Below the pieces are notes generated by a model, which saw only the letters and a program-made list of their open reading frames with translations, had not been told where the DNA came from and ran no database searches. From Phycisphaerales bacterium (lineage in GTDB: Bacteria > Planctomycetota > Phycisphaerae > Phycisphaerales > UBA1924): DNA of 64,000 bases. This document shows positions 10,282-57,330 of the stretch, piece after piece. The stretch lies in the NCBI GenBank assembly GCA_035627955.1, contig DASPKU010000013.1, positions 124,001-188,000 of the forward strand, given 5' to 3'. Both the position numbers and the translations under genes were made by a program. Position 1 is the stretch's first letter. Every line of letters starts with the position of its first letter.

Positions 10282-10371
10282 ACCCGCGGCGGGCATCGGT
10301 GCCTCGCCGAACCATTACTTTCGCAACAGGCCCGAGGTGATGGCACGCTCCTGAAGGCGATGGCGTGCGAT

Positions 10372-10377
10372 TACACT
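10372..10377 (+). promoter_or_regulatory. Leaderless -10 box TACACT
   Basis: TACACT, six bases before the ATG at 10384; no SD between. Confidence 0.5.
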
Positions 10378-10383
10378 GCGCCC

Positions 10384-10971
10384 ATGGACTCGCCGAAAGA
10401 GCCCCGGCGGAAGTGGCTGCTGTGGGCCTTCGCGCTCCCGCTGGCGCCGCTCTACCTTGTGTACGCCCTCGTCATGGGCGGGCTGATGCTGTGCCTCGTT
10501 GCGTATGCGAGGCCCGAACGGCGCGTGGGATCGGCGCGCCTGCGTCGGCGGCTCACGCGAGAGGGACGGGTCGTTTCATGGGCCGAGGTTGACGCCGCGC
10601 TCGCGGCCGCACCCGCGACCATCGTCATCGAAGAGCCGTCCACGGGCTGGAACGACGGGCTGTTCTGGCTTGTCCCCGGTCGCGTCCGCGGCGACGCGCC
10701 GCCGGTCGTCGAGTGCCCGCCCCAGCCCGACGAGGGTGCGTGGCTGGATCATCTCGAAAGTCAGCTCGCCCTCTCCGCCTGGTTCGCTCCCCATGTGAAG
10801 GACCGCCCCGACACCCGGCTCATCGCGGTCGTGCACTCGCACCGCGGGCTCAAGCGCTGCCGCGCTGAGGTCGAGCGGCTCACGCGGCTCCACCCGACGA
10901 ACGCCGATTTAATCGAGGTGAACACCTCGGAGCTCTTCGATCATCTCGCGGCGCGCGAGCAGCGCGGGTGA
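10384..10971 (+). CDS. Hypothetical membrane-anchored protein, 195 residues
   Basis: One strong membrane segment near the N-terminus (WLLWAFALPLAPLYLVYALV, running into GGLMLCLVAYA) follows a basic start (MDSPKEPRRK). A soluble, probably cytoplasmic domain follows, with TIVIEEPSTGWNDGLFWLVP, LSAWFAPHVKDRPDTRLIAV and HSHRGLKRCRAEVERLTRL. I recognise no family. The ATG at 10384 is favoured over one at 10360 because TACACT lies six bases before it. It is divergent from the zinc-ribbon gene and followed by a tandem repeat array. Confidence 0.65.
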   Translation: MDSPKEPRRKWLLWAFALPLAPLYLVYALVMGGLMLCLVAYARPERRVGSARLRRRLTREGRVVSWAEVDAALAAAPATIVIEEPSTGWNDGLFWLVPGRVRGDAPPVVECPPQPDEGAWLDHLESQLALSAWFAPHVKDRPDTRLIAVVHSHRGLKRCRAEVERLTRLHPTNADLIEVNTSELFDHLAAREQRG

Positions 10972-11011
10972 TACCTCGGCTTGGGTCGAGCCGCCAACTG
11001 CGATCGTTCAG

Positions 11012-11179
11012 CCTTCCACAACAATTGTGCAGGCTTCTACAACCGTTGTTCAGCCTTCCACTGCCGTTGTGCGGCCTTCCACAGCGGTTGTTCAGGCTTC
11101 CACGGCCGTTGTGGAACCTTCCACAGCCGTAGTTCAGGCTTCCACAACGGTTGTTCAGCCTTCCACAACCGTTGTGGAA
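11012..11179. repeat. Eight tandem 21-bp repeats
   Basis: Eight units of exactly 21 bases begin at 11012, 11033, 11054, 11075, 11096, 11117, 11138 and 11159. The consensus starts CCTTCCACAACCGTTGT, with a variable six-base centre and constant flanks. The last unit plus two bases is a 23-base palindrome with one central mismatch. Because 21 is divisible by three, frames stay open on both strands (for example F-H-N-x-C-x-x and L-W-K-A-E-Q-P heptads), but I see no convincing gene. The rest of the gap, 11180-11502, shows nothing I can name. Confidence 0.9.
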
Positions 11180-11502
11180 GGCCCCCCGCGCCGCGGGAAG
11201 TCGCGCGGAAGTGGTGAAGGGGCGTGGGGTTGGGGTGATAACGGCGGGCGGACGCTGCGGGTGCGGGTCGTGGCGCGTGGACGGCCTGCGACGATTTTTC
11301 GGGATTTGCCTCCTGTGACGAAAGCGGCCCTCCAAACACGCCGAGGTAAAGGGTGCTGACGGCGGCCTGCCCCGCGGCCCGCATGTGCGGGACCCGCAGA
11401 AGGGTGTGTTGGGTCTACGCGGGTCAGCGTGCGGCGTCGGGGTCACCCATGACCTTCGCCGCACCGATGACCACTCGCGGCCAACGCGCCAAGGAGGGAA
11501 CC

Positions 11503-12192
11503 ATGGGCAGCAACGGAGTCGTGCCGAACGATCGGCGCCAGAAGGTCGTGTTCTACAACGCGCACACCAACGCGTGGTCAGCCAACGCGACCGCCATCGG
11601 CATCACGTCCACGAGGGCCACGGCCTTCGCGGCCCTGGTGCAGGACGCGATCCAGGCGATGAACGAGGCCGACGAGCTGCGCGAGGCGAGCAAGGTGGCC
11701 ACCGCCAACTTCTACAAGGCGGTGTCCACCATGGGCAGCGAGGGGGCGGCCATCATCGCCACCATCCGCGCCTTCGCCGAGAGCACCAACAACGAGGCGG
11801 TGTACGGGATGGCCATGCTGCCTGTTCCCGGCCCCGGCACGCCCGTGCCGCCCCCCGGCACGCCCAGCGATTACCGCGTGGAGCTGCTGCAGGACGGGTC
11901 CATCGTGCTCAAGTGGAAGTGCCAGAACCCCGCGGGGGCGAGCGGCACGATCTACGAGGTGCGGCGGCGGCCCATCGCTGGCGGACCGTGGACCTTCATC
12001 GGGGCCACCGGCACCAAGAGCTTCAGCGACGACACCCTGCCCAGCGGCAGCGGCGGCGTGACCTACCAGATCACCGCGGTGCGGAGCACCCGGCGCGGCA
12101 ACCCCGGGCAGTTCAACGTGAACTTCGGGGTGGGCGGCGGCGGGGGCATCGTGGCCACGGTGACGGAGACCACCGCGAAGCTGGCGGCCTGA
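11503..12192 (+). CDS. Hypothetical protein with C-terminal fibronectin III-like domain
   Basis: A 229-residue protein without a signal peptide. Residues 1 to about 105 are helical and Ala-rich (AFAALVQDAIQAMNEADELR). A Pro/Gly linker (VPGPGTPVPPPGTPS) leads to a beta domain at about 125-215 with fibronectin III-like features (LLQDGSIVLKWKCQNP, IYEVRRRPI, YQITAVRS), then a Gly-rich end. The start is set by a strong AAGGAGG eight bases before the ATG. A hairpin terminator follows. Planctomycetes have similar proteins of unknown role; cellular location is not clear. Confidence 0.72.
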   Translation: MGSNGVVPNDRRQKVVFYNAHTNAWSANATAIGITSTRATAFAALVQDAIQAMNEADELREASKVATANFYKAVSTMGSEGAAIIATIRAFAESTNNEAVYGMAMLPVPGPGTPVPPPGTPSDYRVELLQDGSIVLKWKCQNPAGASGTIYEVRRRPIAGGPWTFIGATGTKSFSDDTLPSGSGGVTYQITAVRSTRRGNPGQFNVNFGVGGGGGIVATVTETTAKLAA

Positions 12193-12268: not shown

Positions 12269-12305
12269 GGCCCGGCGCTGGAGAGCGCCGGGCCTTTTCT
12301 GTTTT
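12269..12305 (+). terminator. Intrinsic terminator after the fibronectin-like gene
   Basis: GGCCCGGCGCT, loop GGAG, AGCGCCGGGCC (12269-12294), then TTTTCTGTTTTT. Confidence 0.85.
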
Positions 12306-12331
12306 TGAGCTTTGAGGTTTGAGCTTTGAGC
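12304..12331. repeat. Heptamer tandem repeat TTTGAGC
   Basis: Four units: TTTGAGC, TTTGAGG, TTTGAGC, TTTGAGC, directly after a terminator. Low-complexity CCCA/ACAT text follows up to 12380. Confidence 0.75.
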
Positions 12332-12417
12332 TTCCTTCCCCACCTCCCAAACTCCCCATCCCACATCCAACATCCCAAGTGCCTCCCTCCGCGCCCCCGC
12401 GTCCTCCGCGAGAGACC

Positions 12418-12504: not shown

Positions 12505-14115
12505 TCAGCACTCACCCCCGCCCAGCACGCGGAAGAAGCTCTCGATGTCGGCGTCGGTGCCGATGTCGCCGTCGCAGTTGAAGTCGGCGTCGGGCGGGCA
12601 GTCGGGGCAGCAGTTGCCGCCCAGGCAGGCGAAGAAGGACTCGATGTCGGCGTCGGTGCCGATGTCGCCGTCCTTGTTGAAGTCCACGTCGCAGCAGATG
12701 AGGGGCAGGCAGGCGTTGACGGTGCGGAGGTCCTCGGGGATGAGGGGGAGCTCGACGCCGCGGAGGTGCTGCACGAAGGTGCTGGTGAACTGCGCCCCCA
12801 GCCGCACGGCCCCGTTCGTCGGCGGCACCGCGGGCTCCTCGCAGCCGCCGCTGAGGCCGGTGAGGATGGAGGCCCGCACGTGGTAGCCGCCCAGGGTGGG
12901 GGCGGTGGCGGTGGTGCGGTTGCCGACGATCACCGCGGCCTGCGGGCTGCCGGTCGTGCCCGGGGCGGCGATGGTCACGCCGTTGCCGCGCTCATTGCCG
13001 CGCCCGTAGTTCCAGGCCCAGATGGGCGTGCCCGCGGTGTCGAGCAGCTCGCCCCACACGTCGGTGGCGATCCCCTGCCGCACCCGCGTGCCGGCGACAA
13101 GGGTGTTGGTGCCGCTGGTGCGGACGCAGGCGTGGCAGGGCTCGAACTCGCGGATGGTGCGGCCCCAGACCACGTTGAGGGCGAGGTCGACCTTGACGAT
13201 CTGGTTGGAGACCATCCCGCCGCTGCCCGCGGCCACCGGCGTGCTGCGGCCGTCGAAGACAAAGCCGCTCAGGCCCCCGGCGGCGCTCATGGCGGCGGCG
13301 AGGCCGTCGCCGTGCACCTTGAGCGAGGGGTCGCCGTTGTTGTAGAAGAAGGCCTGAACGACGGCGCCGTTGAGCTTGTTGACGCGGAGCAGGAAGGGGA
13401 CGCCGCCGCCGTTGCTCAGCGCGGCCGTGCCCACCGCGAGCAGGAACTCGGGCTCCTCGACGACGTCGGTGATCTCGCAGGAGCCGGTCAGGCCCTCGAC
13501 GCCGGCGGTGGGGGTGTACACCCGCGACCACATCACCGCGCCGCAGCCGGCGCTGAACCGCGTGAGGCGCCCGAAGGTGGGCGCGGTGGACGCCGCCTGC
13601 GAGCGGCCGGTGACGACGTAGGACTGGTCGGCCAGGGGCTTGACCGCGACGGGCGAGCGGCTGGCCGGGCTGTTGGGGCCGACGCCGTTGATCTCCCGCA
13701 TGGGGCAGGTGACGTTGCCGTTGAGGTCGATGGTCATGACCCACGTCCCCCACGGGAAGGCGTCGGCCATCTCGCCGGCGATGATGTAGCGGGCGTTGGC
13801 CCCGGCGCCGACCTGGTTGATGCTGGTGCAGCTCGCGTCCCAGTTGGTGGGGCTGAACTTGGACCAGATCACGTTGCCCGCCGCGTCGTAGCGGGCCATG
13901 TGCAGCATGTTGAACCCCTCGCGGCCCACCGCGATGTGCCCGCCGTCGGGCGTGCCCGCGACCGCCTGCAGGTTGGTGGCCGGGTTCGCCCCGCCGCCGG
14001 GCGACAGCGGCGTGGTGTCGGCCCGCTGGTAGACCTGGGCCTGGACCGTCACGGCCGGGAGGCTGGTGAGCAGGGCGGCGGCGAAGAGGGCGGCGGCGGT
14101 GATGCGAGTCGTCAT
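12505..14115 (-). CDS. Exported repeat protein with doubled EF-hand C-terminal tag
   Basis: A 536-residue secreted protein. A signal peptide (ALFAAALLTSLPAVTVQAQ) is followed by propeller-like strands built on G-x-x-V-W-S-K/R patterns (AGNVIWSKFSP, CGAVMWSRVY, LNVVWGRTI). Such repeats occur in secreted proteins of the SBBP/delta-60 kind. The C-terminus carries two calcium-loop segments (DFNKDGDIGTDADIESFF and DFNCDGDIGTDADIESFF) separated by a Cys cluster, ending LGGGEC at the stop. The ATG at 14115 has AAGGAG nine bases upstream; a longer open frame to 14943 is a shadow. It probably functions at the cell surface; ligand unknown. Confidence 0.8.
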   Translation of the reverse strand: MTTRITAAALFAAALLTSLPAVTVQAQVYQRADTTPLSPGGGANPATNLQAVAGTPDGGHIAVGREGFNMLHMARYDAAGNVIWSKFSPTNWDASCTSINQVGAGANARYIIAGEMADAFPWGTWVMTIDLNGNVTCPMREINGVGPNSPASRSPVAVKPLADQSYVVTGRSQAASTAPTFGRLTRFSAGCGAVMWSRVYTPTAGVEGLTGSCEITDVVEEPEFLLAVGTAALSNGGGVPFLLRVNKLNGAVVQAFFYNNGDPSLKVHGDGLAAAMSAAGGLSGFVFDGRSTPVAAGSGGMVSNQIVKVDLALNVVWGRTIREFEPCHACVRTSGTNTLVAGTRVRQGIATDVWGELLDTAGTPIWAWNYGRGNERGNGVTIAAPGTTGSPQAAVIVGNRTTATAPTLGGYHVRASILTGLSGGCEEPAVPPTNGAVRLGAQFTSTFVQHLRGVELPLIPEDLRTVNACLPLICCDVDFNKDGDIGTDADIESFFACLGGNCCPDCPPDADFNCDGDIGTDADIESFFRVLGGGEC

Positions 14116-14280
14116 GGCTGATCTCCTTGGTGAGCGTGGTCTTTGAGGCTCGTGTGTGTGTGGTGGCCTCACCCTCGGAATCGCCGCCCGCCCGCGCCGC
14201 TTACGCCCTGGGGACGGTTTTTTTCGTCTCTGGCTGCAAGGTCGGCCCCCGCGGGGGCAACCGGGGCCCGCAGATTGCCA

Positions 14281-14310
14281 TTGACAAGCCAGCCAAGTGG
14301 CCACGACAAT
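14281..14310 (+). promoter_or_regulatory. Sigma-70-like promoter
   Basis: TTGACA (14281-14286), an 18-base spacer, and GACAAT (14305-14310), about 40 bases before the ATG at 14351. The -35 is perfect; the -10 matches at four of six positions. Confidence 0.5.
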
Positions 14311-14350
14311 GGGGCTTACACGCCCGACAGGGCGGAGAGAGAGGAAGACC

Positions 14351-15013
14351 ATGGGTTGCCGGTCCGTTGTCGGGCTTTCGTGCGCCATTGCCGGCGCGGC
14401 GTTGTGCGGTGAGTCCCGCGCCTTCGAGGGGTCGGTCAACGGCCTGGGCCAGGGCAGCGTCCACGCCTCTATCTGGGCGTACCCCAACCAGCCGCCCGCG
14501 ACGCCCACCTTCCACGAGCACACCGAGGTGCCCAACCTCGTCATGGGCCCCAACCTTCCCGGCGCCGACCCGCGGACCGGCTTCCGCTTCATCACCGGCC
14601 AGGCGTGGCGGACCACCGTGAACATCCGCGCGGCGCAGGGCGACACGGTGGACTGGCACAGCATGCTCCCGCACGTCACCGCCAGCTCCGCCGACGCCGC
14701 GGGCTTCGTCGAGGTCCTCTCCGCCGAGCCTTTCGGCGGCGGGGCGAGGCTGTTCACGGTGCAGTGGGGCGCGAGCGACCCGGGCGTGGCGTTCCACATC
14801 GGGTGGTTCATGGGCCAAGAGCCCATCGTGCAGACGCCGATCATGGTCGGCCCGTTCAACCGCACCGACACCTTCCTGGTGCAGGTCCCCAGTGGCGACC
14901 TCAACCAGCTCCGCATGGAGGTCAGCGGCGCGGCGGTGAGCATCGTGCCGGCGCCCGGCGTGCTGGGGCTGATGGGCGCGGCGGGTCTGGTCGCCCTGCG
15001 CCGCCGCCGCTAG
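14351..15013 (+). CDS. PEP-CTERM-like secreted protein
   Basis: A 220-residue exported protein. N-terminal signal: MGCRSVVGLSCAIAGAALCG. The middle is beta-rich with conserved aromatic and His residues (VDWHSMLPHVTA, VAFHIGWFMGQEPI). The C-terminus has the tripartite sorting pattern: a VPAPG motif, a hydrophobic helix (VLGLMGAAGLVAL) and RRRR at the stop, close to PEP-CTERM substrates processed by exosortases, but with Ala-Pro-Gly in place of Pro-Glu-Pro. A GAGAGAGGAAG purine run precedes the ATG. Its stop overlaps the stop of the convergent kinase gene. Confidence 0.75.
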   Translation: MGCRSVVGLSCAIAGAALCGESRAFEGSVNGLGQGSVHASIWAYPNQPPATPTFHEHTEVPNLVMGPNLPGADPRTGFRFITGQAWRTTVNIRAAQGDTVDWHSMLPHVTASSADAAGFVEVLSAEPFGGGARLFTVQWGASDPGVAFHIGWFMGQEPIVQTPIMVGPFNRTDTFLVQVPSGDLNQLRMEVSGAAVSIVPAPGVLGLMGAAGLVALRRRR

Positions 15014-40040: not shown

Positions 40041-40075
40041 CGGAACCGGAAACCGGAAAGCGGAAACCGGAAAGC
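40041..40075. repeat. Heptamer tandem repeat CGGAAAC/CGGAAAG
   Basis: Five adjacent units based on CGGAAAS immediately after the globin stop codon. Confidence 0.75.
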
Positions 40076-55473: not shown

Positions 55474-57330
55474 ATGCTCCTCCGCTCCCACACCTGCGGC
55501 CAGCTCCGCGATGAACACGCCGGCCAGACCGTCACCCTCAACGGCTGGGTCCACGCCTACCGCGACCACGGCAACCTCGTCTTCATCGACCTCCGCGACC
55601 GCTTCGGCATCACGCAGGTCGTCTTCGAAAAAGAGTCCATGGCCCCCGCCGTGCTCGAGCTCGGCAGCAAGCTCCGCAACGAGGACGTCGTCGCCATCAA
55701 GGGCAGCGTCCGCAAGCGCGCCGGCACCCCCAACAACAAGATCCCAACCGGCACCATCGAGGTCGTCGCCAGCGAGCTCGAGCTCCTCAACAAGACCGAC
55801 AACCCGCCCTTCCTCCCTGACGAAGGCTCGGGCCAGAAGCTCGCCAACGAGGAGCTCCGCCTCACCTACCGCTACGTGGACCTCCGCCGCCCCCAGATGC
55901 AGAAGGTCCTCGCCACCCGCCACAAGCTCTACCAGGTCACCCGCAAGTACTTCGACGAGAACGGCTTCCTCGAGATCGAGACGCCCATCCTCTACAAGTC
56001 CACCCCCGAGGGCGCCCGCGAGTTCCTCGTGCCCTCCCGCCACGTCCCCGGCACCTTCTACGCCCTGCCCCAGTCCCCCCAGCTCTTCAAGCAGATCCTC
56101 ATGGTCAGCGGCTGCGACCGCTACATGCAGATCTGCCGCTGCTTCCGCGACGAGGACCCCCGCGCCGACCGCCAGGCCGAGTTCACGCAGATCGACCTGG
56201 AGATGTCCTTCGTCCGCCGCGAGCAGGTCATGCAGATGATGGAGGGCTTCATCCGCCGCCTCTGGAAGGAGATGGCCAACGTCGATGTGCCCCCCATGCA
56301 GCGCATGACCTACCGCGAGGCCATGGAGCGCTTCGGCATCGACCGCCCCGACACCCGCTACGGCCTCGAGATCCGCGACATCTCGACCATCGCCGCCAAG
56401 ATGGACCTGGGCTTTTTCAAGGAGACCCTCGCCAAGGGTCAGGACGCCCCCAAGTACTCAAGCCGCCGCGGCGTCGTCAAGGCCATCCTCGTCCCCGGCG
56501 GCGCCGAGAAGCTCTCCCGCAAGATGACCGACGGCTACACGCCCTTCGTCGCCGGCTTTGGCGCGGGCGGCGTCGCCGTCGTCAAGATGAACGCCGCCGG
56601 AGCCTTCGAGACCGGTATCGCCAAGTTCGCCGAGCCAGTGAAAGCCGAGCTCGTCGAAGCCCTCGGCATCAAGCCCGGCGACGCCGTGCTCTTCGTCGCC
56701 GATACCTACAACGTCGCCACCAAGGCACTCGGCGAGCTCCGCCAGAAGGTCGCCCGCGACATGGGCCTCGTGCCCAAGCCCGGCGCCGAGGGCGGCCCGT
56801 GGAACTTCCTCTGGGTCGTTGACTTCCCCATGTTCGAGCGCGACAAGCAAACCGGCCGCTGGGTCGCCATGCACCACCCCTTCACCAGCCCCAACGACGA
56901 TCAGCTCGAGGCCTTCGTCAAGGCGGACGTCAACGACGAGGACACCATCGCCTCCATCGTCTCCGCCGGCTACGACATCGTCCTCAACGGCCAGGAAATC
57001 GCCGGCGGCTCCATCCGCATCCACAACCAGGAAGTCCAGTCCAAGGTCTTCCAGCTCCTGGGCCTCACCCCCGAGTCCGCCCGCGAGAAGTTCTCCTTCC
57101 TCCTCGAGGCCCTCCGCTACGGCGCTCCCCCGCACGGCGGCGTCGCCTTCGGCCTCGACCGCCTCGTCATGAACTTCGTCGGCACCGACAACATCCGCGA
57201 CGTCATCGCCTTCCCCAAGACCCAGACCGGCGCCGACCTCATGACCAAGGCCCCCAGCTTCGTCCCCCCCGACCAGCTGAGGGAGGTCCACGTCGCCAGC
57301 ATCGCAACCGCCCCCGCGAACAAGGCGTAA
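55474..57330 (+). CDS. aspS: Aspartyl-tRNA synthetase
   Basis: A 618-residue bacterial-type class IIb synthetase. The N-terminal OB fold is TVTLNGWVHAYRDHGNLVFI. Motif 2 is CFRDEDPRADRQAEFTQIDL, the GAD insertion domain lies at about 300-410, and motif 3 is FGLDRLVM. The residue after RD in the anticodon domain is His (YRDHG), which in characterised enzymes goes with relaxed, non-discriminating charging of tRNA(Asn); the presence of GatCAB cannot be checked here. Start at 55474; the open frame upstream contains a repeat. TATACT and GAAAGG precede it. Confidence 0.96.
   Translation: MLLRSHTCGQLRDEHAGQTVTLNGWVHAYRDHGNLVFIDLRDRFGITQVVFEKESMAPAVLELGSKLRNEDVVAIKGSVRKRAGTPNNKIPTGTIEVVASELELLNKTDNPPFLPDEGSGQKLANEELRLTYRYVDLRRPQMQKVLATRHKLYQVTRKYFDENGFLEIETPILYKSTPEGAREFLVPSRHVPGTFYALPQSPQLFKQILMVSGCDRYMQICRCFRDEDPRADRQAEFTQIDLEMSFVRREQVMQMMEGFIRRLWKEMANVDVPPMQRMTYREAMERFGIDRPDTRYGLEIRDISTIAAKMDLGFFKETLAKGQDAPKYSSRRGVVKAILVPGGAEKLSRKMTDGYTPFVAGFGAGGVAVVKMNAAGAFETGIAKFAEPVKAELVEALGIKPGDAVLFVADTYNVATKALGELRQKVARDMGLVPKPGAEGGPWNFLWVVDFPMFERDKQTGRWVAMHHPFTSPNDDQLEAFVKADVNDEDTIASIVSAGYDIVLNGQEIAGGSIRIHNQEVQSKVFQLLGLTPESAREKFSFLLEALRYGAPPHGGVAFGLDRLVMNFVGTDNIRDVIAFPKTQTGADLMTKAPSFVPPDQLREVHVASIATAPANKA

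Follow-up and report, generated by a model that had tools for sequence, protein, structure and literature searches.

Intergenic tandem arrays with a 21-bp period in a family of Phycisphaerae, possibly rows of protein-binding sites

The array in the window and its neighbours

The window analysed is the whole stretch of 64,000 nucleotides at G000:C13:124001-188000, where G000 is the label given to the Phycisphaerae genome that contains it. Using Tandem Repeats Finder and unit alignment, an array of eight 21-bp units (array 1, consensus CAGCCTTCCACAACSGTTGTK, no strand assigned, no indels) was placed at 11009..11176. The program reported 8.0 copies with 76% matches and 0% indels, with higher scores for periods 42 and 63. 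The mean pairwise identity of the units was 0.80, the array reached a robust z of 10.7 in an ungapped period scan, well beyond chance, and its GC fraction was 0.56 against 0.68 window-wide. A decayed ninth unit in the same register, also without an assigned strand, lies at 10988..11008, where the profile scan gave an in-phase match at 10988. At the end of the array, a perfect odd palindrome of 25 bases, read from the sequence at 11158..11182, is formed by the last unit together with its right edge.

An earlier note on this DNA had described eight perfect-length 21-bp tandem units, and the placement at 11009-11176, ungapped and with the decayed ninth unit, bears this out. It had also given the last unit as a 23-base palindrome, which needs correction to the 25 bases at 11158-11182. 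The unit flanks that it called constant hold for the consensus only, as CCTTCCAC was exact in five of the eight units and TTGTTCAG in three, and not every one of the centres that it called nearly self-complementary is symmetric: four units have A and four have G at one position, whose dyad partner is T throughout the eight. As an observation on array 1, the note was partly confirmed.

The array lies between two plus-strand genes, both without a Pfam match. The left gene (10360..10971, 203 aa) has its stop codon 37 bp before array 1, and the right gene (11503..12192, 229 aa) encodes a protein with 25 matches in the genome, itself included. The latter protein begins VVPNDRRQKV... and has an end that looks FN3-like by eye. 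A gene of this type adjoins both arrays 1 and 3. A link between arrays and the FN3-like neighbour was considered and judged weak because of the 25 genome matches and because the locus L031 of a relative (6.4 kb, apparently from G023) carries no 21-bp array. Further along the window, a long minus-strand frame at 12505-14943 ends in two DGDIGTDAD motifs, which resemble dockerin or calcium-binding repeats. Heptamer tandem repeats (GGCAAAT, TTTGAGC, AACCGGA, AAAGGGC) were seen at 12304-12333 and 40044-40073 of the window and at L035:502-561 and L030:6565-6609, and are a separate class of short repeats.

Known element types were compared with array 1. A CRISPR array was rejected, the units repeating over their whole length with no spacers and neither neighbour having a Pfam match. 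An Rfam search over 3 kb returned seven matches at E up to 1, none of them at gathering score. No intrinsic terminator or promoter was found within the array; one terminator-like site lies outside it at 11276-11290, where 0.9 were expected from shuffles. Searches of array 1 against plasmids and phages gave no match, and an origin from either was rejected.

Further arrays in the same genome

The search for arrays elsewhere in the genome that the earlier note had suggested was carried out and was the decisive check. The core ACARCSGYTGT was sought in tandem throughout G000, and three more core-sharing arrays were found: one at C1:152728-152930, between a putative glutathione peroxidase gene (judged by eye) and a T2SSF gene; one on C11 near 56100-56330; and one on C19 near 199930-200150, after a tRNA-Leu. 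All four arrays (a1-a4) have in common the period of 21 and variants of an ACAACSGTTGT core, with differing spacers. Five further 21-bp arrays of other sequence were present in the 440 kb of G000 that was sampled. Two features by which satellite DNA is recognised were thus found here, namely several head-to-tail copies in non-coding DNA and the recurrence of related arrays at different places in one genome (a1-a4 of G000, and a6 with a9).

Searches in relatives and survey of periods

The core array was not found in 391 other genomes of the phylum, none of which is a second species of the window's genus. A lone core pair with one mismatch occurred in one of the 391, and a reversed-pattern control matched in four; at three mismatches the core pattern gave fewer matches in the relatives than did the control. 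Twenty-two loci were fetched from relatives, nine by the core pattern and 13 by weak model matches, and five of them (L022, L025, L033, L035 and L038, from five genera of the window's family) were 21-bp arrays with different units. The genus of G022 has three further species in the phylum genome set, and G023 belongs to the window's family.

A tandem query favours 21-bp arrays, and DNA was therefore sampled without looking for arrays first. The sample comprised 120 stretches (2.4 Mb) of ten genomes, mostly from contigs whose length was known from earlier matches, and did not include the window. Of the arrays already known, those of G000:C1 and G022:C1 lay outside the sampled stretches, and those of G006, G045 and G048 inside. 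The scan was ungapped and covered periods 8-60.

Among 21 intergenic places with a period of at least 17, ten were at 21, eight at 42, and one each at 19, 23 and 26, so that 18 of the 21 places of period 17-60 fell at 21 or 42. When the three places that had led to their contigs were set aside, the proportion was 15 of 18, which has a probability of about 5e-18 if periods 17-60 are equally likely. Coding places numbered 43; the period was at least 17 in 11 of these and 21 or 42 in none of the 11. After one local shuffle of all 120 stretches, no intergenic place with a period of 17-60 exceeded z 6.5. Intergenic arrays of shorter period were common, with 19 places at period 8 and six at period 14.

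The genomes differed in their number of places at 21 or 42, with five in 440 kb of G000, five in 400 kb of G022, two in 300 kb of G023, three in 60 kb of G045 (one known before), two in 40 kb of G048 (one known before) and one, already known, in 300 kb of G006. None was called in G051 (360 kb), G012 (200 kb), G068 (100 kb) or G027 (200 kb), the last of which belongs to another family of the order.

In a looser scan by conserved columns, which short periods pass easily, the places numbered 24 for period 13, 21 for period 14 and 17 for period 21; all 17 period-21 places fell in six genomes. It added the arrays L149 (G023), L107 and L116 (G022). In L149, ATCGAT is exact in seven of 11 units at 21-bp steps, and the other positions look near random by eye. 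Matched runs outside called arrays were also counted by lag. In the array-bearing genomes there were 20 at lag 21 against a mean of 5.8 per lag, and in the four array-less genomes six against a mean of 2.3, some of the lag-21 runs belonging to the L149 array or to heptamer repeats. Two side observations arose from these scans. Lag 66 gave 56 matched runs outside called arrays in the stretches of G000, G006, G022, G023, G045 and G048, perhaps from a CRISPR array, and L139:8118 (G048) is a two-copy tandem duplication of a 21-base unit, with a 22-base exact match at lag 21, possibly a newborn array.

Unit sequence, symmetry and register

A catalogue of 26 arrays from seven genomes was assembled. 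Units from different genomes were about as similar as expected by chance (mean z 0.18 over 261 pairs). Units from one genome resembled each other more (mean z 1.01 over 64 pairs, p 0.014), a difference to which the collection of a1-a4 by similarity contributes. The G000 pair a6-a9 was found blind and has a similarity of z 6.8; many other arrays had no close partner in the unit comparison. A search of 24 consensus units yielded no motif shared by every array. GAA occurred in 18 of the 24, against 8.9 expected, and the most over-represented 5-mer, CCGAA, in seven, against 1.1 expected, the largest count in shuffles being eight at the 95% level.

Dyad symmetry was tested on 24 arrays and was significant (p<0.05) in 15, with a combined p of 3.7e-19, and absent at that level in nine. 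Among the arrays not found through sequence similarity, nine of 15 passed. Column conservation was mirrored about the dyad, with a mean r of 0.18 compared with -0.01 at other centres (p 0.007). Within the 26 arrays there was no repair of symmetry (2335 paired cells against 2336.5 expected) and no excess of covarying or compensatory changes (covarying cells numbered 133, where 130.9 were expected with an sd of 7.9). Symmetry that is left unrepaired within arrays is more easily reconciled with selection acting position by position on a DNA site, or with simple inheritance from a symmetric seed, than with a selected stem.

At 206 unit junctions there were 1,454 base differences and no gap, the latter by construction of the ungapped scan; the absence of gaps is partly ascertainment because the arrays were collected by ungapped scans. 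Register was also examined by scanning array profiles over the arrays plus 250 bp on either side, with the 232 profile-building units set aside. This gave 24 further in-phase matches, in the 250-bp flanks, and 72 off-phase matches over arrays and flanks, spread over 20 other phases; of the latter, 21 were at 10 or 11 bases and 10 were one base off. One array, G013a1, contains one likely one-base slip. Inside units, circular similarity at lag 10 was the largest of ten lags (z 2.9) and was raised also when bases were scored as A/T versus G/C. The half-period matches and the raised lag-10 match are a hint of 10.5-bp order inside the units.

Gene context of the arrays

None of the 26 arrays overlapped a gene called by our home-made gene caller. 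The intergenic status of the three G023 arrays is less sure, because the caller covers only 45% of G023 DNA; by eye, the frames over the G023 arrays had no coding-like base pattern. The flanking genes were divergent in 11 cases, in the same direction in nine and convergent in three, with one side unknown in three, and in a reference of 242 gaps of at least 250 bp the corresponding counts were 79 divergent, 130 same-direction and 33 convergent.

There were 49 flanking genes, of which 40 were scanned against Pfam and nine left out. Matches were obtained for 23 of the 40, to TruB, class II tRNA synthetase, MreB, ribosomal S2, KaiC, glycosyltransferases and others. No common theme was found among the scanned genes (40 of 49), and no rep or par family among the 23 with a match. 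T2SSF adjoins two arrays (G000a2 and G006a1), on opposite sides. The Y1 transposase family PF01797 was present in six of seven array-bearing genomes and in two of four sampled genomes without arrays; array-rich G022 had none, and G000 and G027 had nine each. The G022 arrays a4 (L110:15741) and a5 (L111:6650) end beside a shared stretch, CCGCGGGTCCRATCATGTT, which lies at the 3' ends of genes on the minus strand whose Pfam matches differ and may be a common gene-end element that anchors some arrays.

Interpretation

The arrays constitute a class in this Phycisphaerae family, with units locked at 21 bp, a tendency to dyad symmetry and a nearly free sequence. As our tentative first choice, to which we give somewhat less than an even chance, they would be rows of sites recognised by a DNA-binding protein in dimeric or oligomeric form. 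What was observed is the period and how strictly the arrays found keep to it, their place outside called genes, the dyads in most of them, the mirrored conservation and the turnover of sequence; what we infer is the protein, that it binds, and any consequence for nearby genes or for the folding of the chromosome. Judged from the sequences, the 21-bp spacing rather than the sequence itself seems to be what is kept.

A period of 21 bp corresponds to two turns of B-DNA, and there would be one dimer per two turns, all dimers on one face of the helix; with a two-turn period and dyads every 10.5 bp, like sites fall on one helix face. The simplest working model would be cooperative binding of a dimeric protein whose sequence preference changes, the protein being a candidate nucleoid-organising or local regulatory factor that acts as a dimer or oligomer. 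That most of the arrays share no motif counts against this reading, since it would be odd for one sequence-specific protein. Also weighing against it are the nine arrays without significant dyads, the partly ascertained lack of indels, the four sampled genomes without any array and G006 with its already known one alone, the larger number of places at periods 13 and 14 in the looser scan, and the absence of a theme among the flanking genes scanned. Because arrays within one genome sometimes share a unit family, our guess is that each genome has a few cognate proteins of changing specificity. The earlier note had favoured protein-binding sites or an RNA repeat over a decaying microsatellite. Its direction was right, given the fixed length in 26 arrays and the symmetry of 15 of 24, its RNA branch has been weakened, and the interpretation is partly supported.

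The chief rival, which we hold to be rather unlikely, is that the arrays are a dispersed minisatellite or prokaryotic satellite DNA, generated by a copying process that fixes the length at 21 bp or descended from one ancestral array, after which they spread and diverged without function and owed their symmetry to palindromic seeds. Best periods of 42 and 63 mean that blocks of whole units were duplicated, which speaks for this explanation, and it accounts for the unit families common within a genome (a1-a4 of G000, and a6 with a9 at z 6.8), for a palindromy that is a property of the consensus and is not restored unit by unit, and for some excess of lag-21 matched runs outside arrays (20 against 5.8 and six against 2.3), although part of those runs is the L149 array or heptamer repeats. 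Variable intergenic tandem repeats have also been reported for lake Planctomycetota, in the available part of that paper (PMC9426551). Units are nevertheless mostly unrelated between arrays while the register is intact, and common descent would need very fast turnover because most arrays have unrelated units. The short core kept by L149 among random-looking spacers is likewise not what neutral divergence of whole units gives.

Intrinsic curvature was considered next and appears improbable as the function. In this explanation a two-turn period sums whatever bend the unit has, so that sequence is free and period fixed. Bending was estimated with a wedge model, against a background of 1240 intergenic windows. 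The predicted mean bend was 0.691 deg/bp at pitch 21 and fell to 0.328 and 0.319 when units were set at 20 or 22, and 16 of the 26 arrays were predicted to exceed the 95th percentile of the background windows; the mildly raised lag-10 similarity inside units (z 2.9) points the same way. However, modelled units were no more bent than column-permuted units (p 0.15), so that curvature may be a side effect of the 21-bp spacing; some arrays were predicted to be nearly straight (G000a3 0.05, G022a4 0.20, G023a1 0.22), and A/T content had no 10.5-bp harmonic (z about 0).

Slightly less probable again is a structured RNA: a transcript of the array would form hairpins and might, for instance, serve the upstream gene as a 3' untranslated element. 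On either strand, the predicted folding of array 1 and its flanks was much stronger than that of shuffled sequences (z -8.2 and -6.5), but good folding of palindromic repeats is expected by construction. The position of array 1, starting 37 bp after a stop codon, would suit such an element, but arrays also sit between divergent and between convergent genes. Breaks of symmetry in array 1 are G-T rather than A-C by 26 to 2 on the plus strand, which base skew does not explain; over 24 arrays, however, G-T is not favoured (328 against 430 A-C) and the balance mostly follows base skew. Covariation is lacking within the 26 arrays (2335 pairs against 2336.5 expected), and no Rfam family reached its gathering score. 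Outside array 1 nothing was found in favour of either an RNA or a peptide role.

A repetitive peptide, in which 21 bp would be seven codons (QPSTTVV in array 1), is very improbable: the changes in array 1 do avoid codon position 2 (9, 1 and 12 at positions 1, 2 and 3) and the QPSTTVV frame is open from about 10922 to 11359, but no ATG, GTG or TTG precedes the array in that frame, the first start lying inside it, the codon-bias permutation gave p 0.086 for array 1 and p<0.05 in only one of 19 arrays, the matching frame of array 2 has stops, and none of the 26 arrays overlaps a called gene. The earlier note had left this peptide possible on the ground that all frames remain open; in fact three of the six frames have stops inside array 1 (one on the plus strand, four and one on the minus strand), and with no start before the array, no codon-phase bias and no gene overlap the peptide reading fails.

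If the protein-site reading is extended, the arrays might represent a new class of chromosomal element in which helical spacing is conserved and sequence is not. There would be tens of intergenic arrays per genome (an extrapolation of the counts of five in the 440 kb of G000 and five in the 400 kb of G022), with two-turn phasing and dyads every 10.5 bp, loading a chromatin protein that reads a helix face and whose preference turns over between genera. We offer this wider proposal as speculative and doubtful. Tandem repeats between bacterial genes are usually taken to be noise from slippage, arbitrary in length. If a single length of two helical turns is kept across unrelated sequences, then either the geometry of the DNA is under selection or an enzyme duplicates DNA in 21-bp steps, and either would be new as far as we know. 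Selection predicts an array-binding protein, and duplication a mutational signature. Planctomycetes are known for condensed nucleoids, and the arrays would offer a handle on chromosome organisation in these bacteria.

Comparison with known systems

No description of a fixed 21-bp intergenic class was found in the open-licence literature, as judged by titles and the openings of abstracts. Plasmid iterons and parS-like arrays are tandem protein sites with a spacing near 20-22 bp, borne on replicons beside rep or par genes. They are the likely working analogue of the 21-bp arrays, many of which, unlike iterons and parS sites, adjoin unrelated genes, with no rep or parAB neighbour among the genes scanned.

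Prokaryotic satellites (Subirana and Messeguer 2019, PMC6749651) are described, in the part of that paper available, as comprising unique satellites alongside families of assorted lengths, with the long ones mostly multiples of 3 and tied to coding. Among the satellite-rich species that the paper tabulates, Rhodopirellula baltica is the sole planctomycete. The present arrays resemble them as head-to-tail repeats, some of which are non-coding and lie between genes, with some related arrays at several loci per genome; they differ in the fixed 21-bp class and the dyad symmetry, neither of which is reported in that part of the paper. The repeats of lake Planctomycetota (PMC9426551) are intergenic tandem repeats from the same phylum and are tied to structural variants there, with no unit length, symmetry or sequence given for comparison in the available text.

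REP and BIME elements (PMC3733652) are likewise intergenic palindromic units, of 20-40 bp, reported from Planctomycetes too in the part of that paper available. According to the same source, REPs keep a GTAG or CGTC tag and many are linked to RAYT transposases, whereas here the sequence changes and the register is fixed. A REP/RAYT element was rejected for array 1, the consensus of which has neither GTAG nor CGTC by eye; GTAG, on either strand, occurs in two of its eight units. In the available text of a REP survey (PMC12306157), neither 'Planctomyc' nor 'tandem' occurs.

Borg tandem repeats (PMC9879509, available part) also formed as independent arrays across the genome, about half of them between genes. 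They are perfect, with variable unit length and 43-65% in reading frames, in contrast to the diverged units of fixed length described here. Helically phased H-NS sites (PMC5418058, available part) offer a parallel in that a nucleoid protein nucleates there at sites in helical phase, the difference being that those are two high-affinity sites about ten turns apart and the arrays described here are tandem 21-bp symmetric units.
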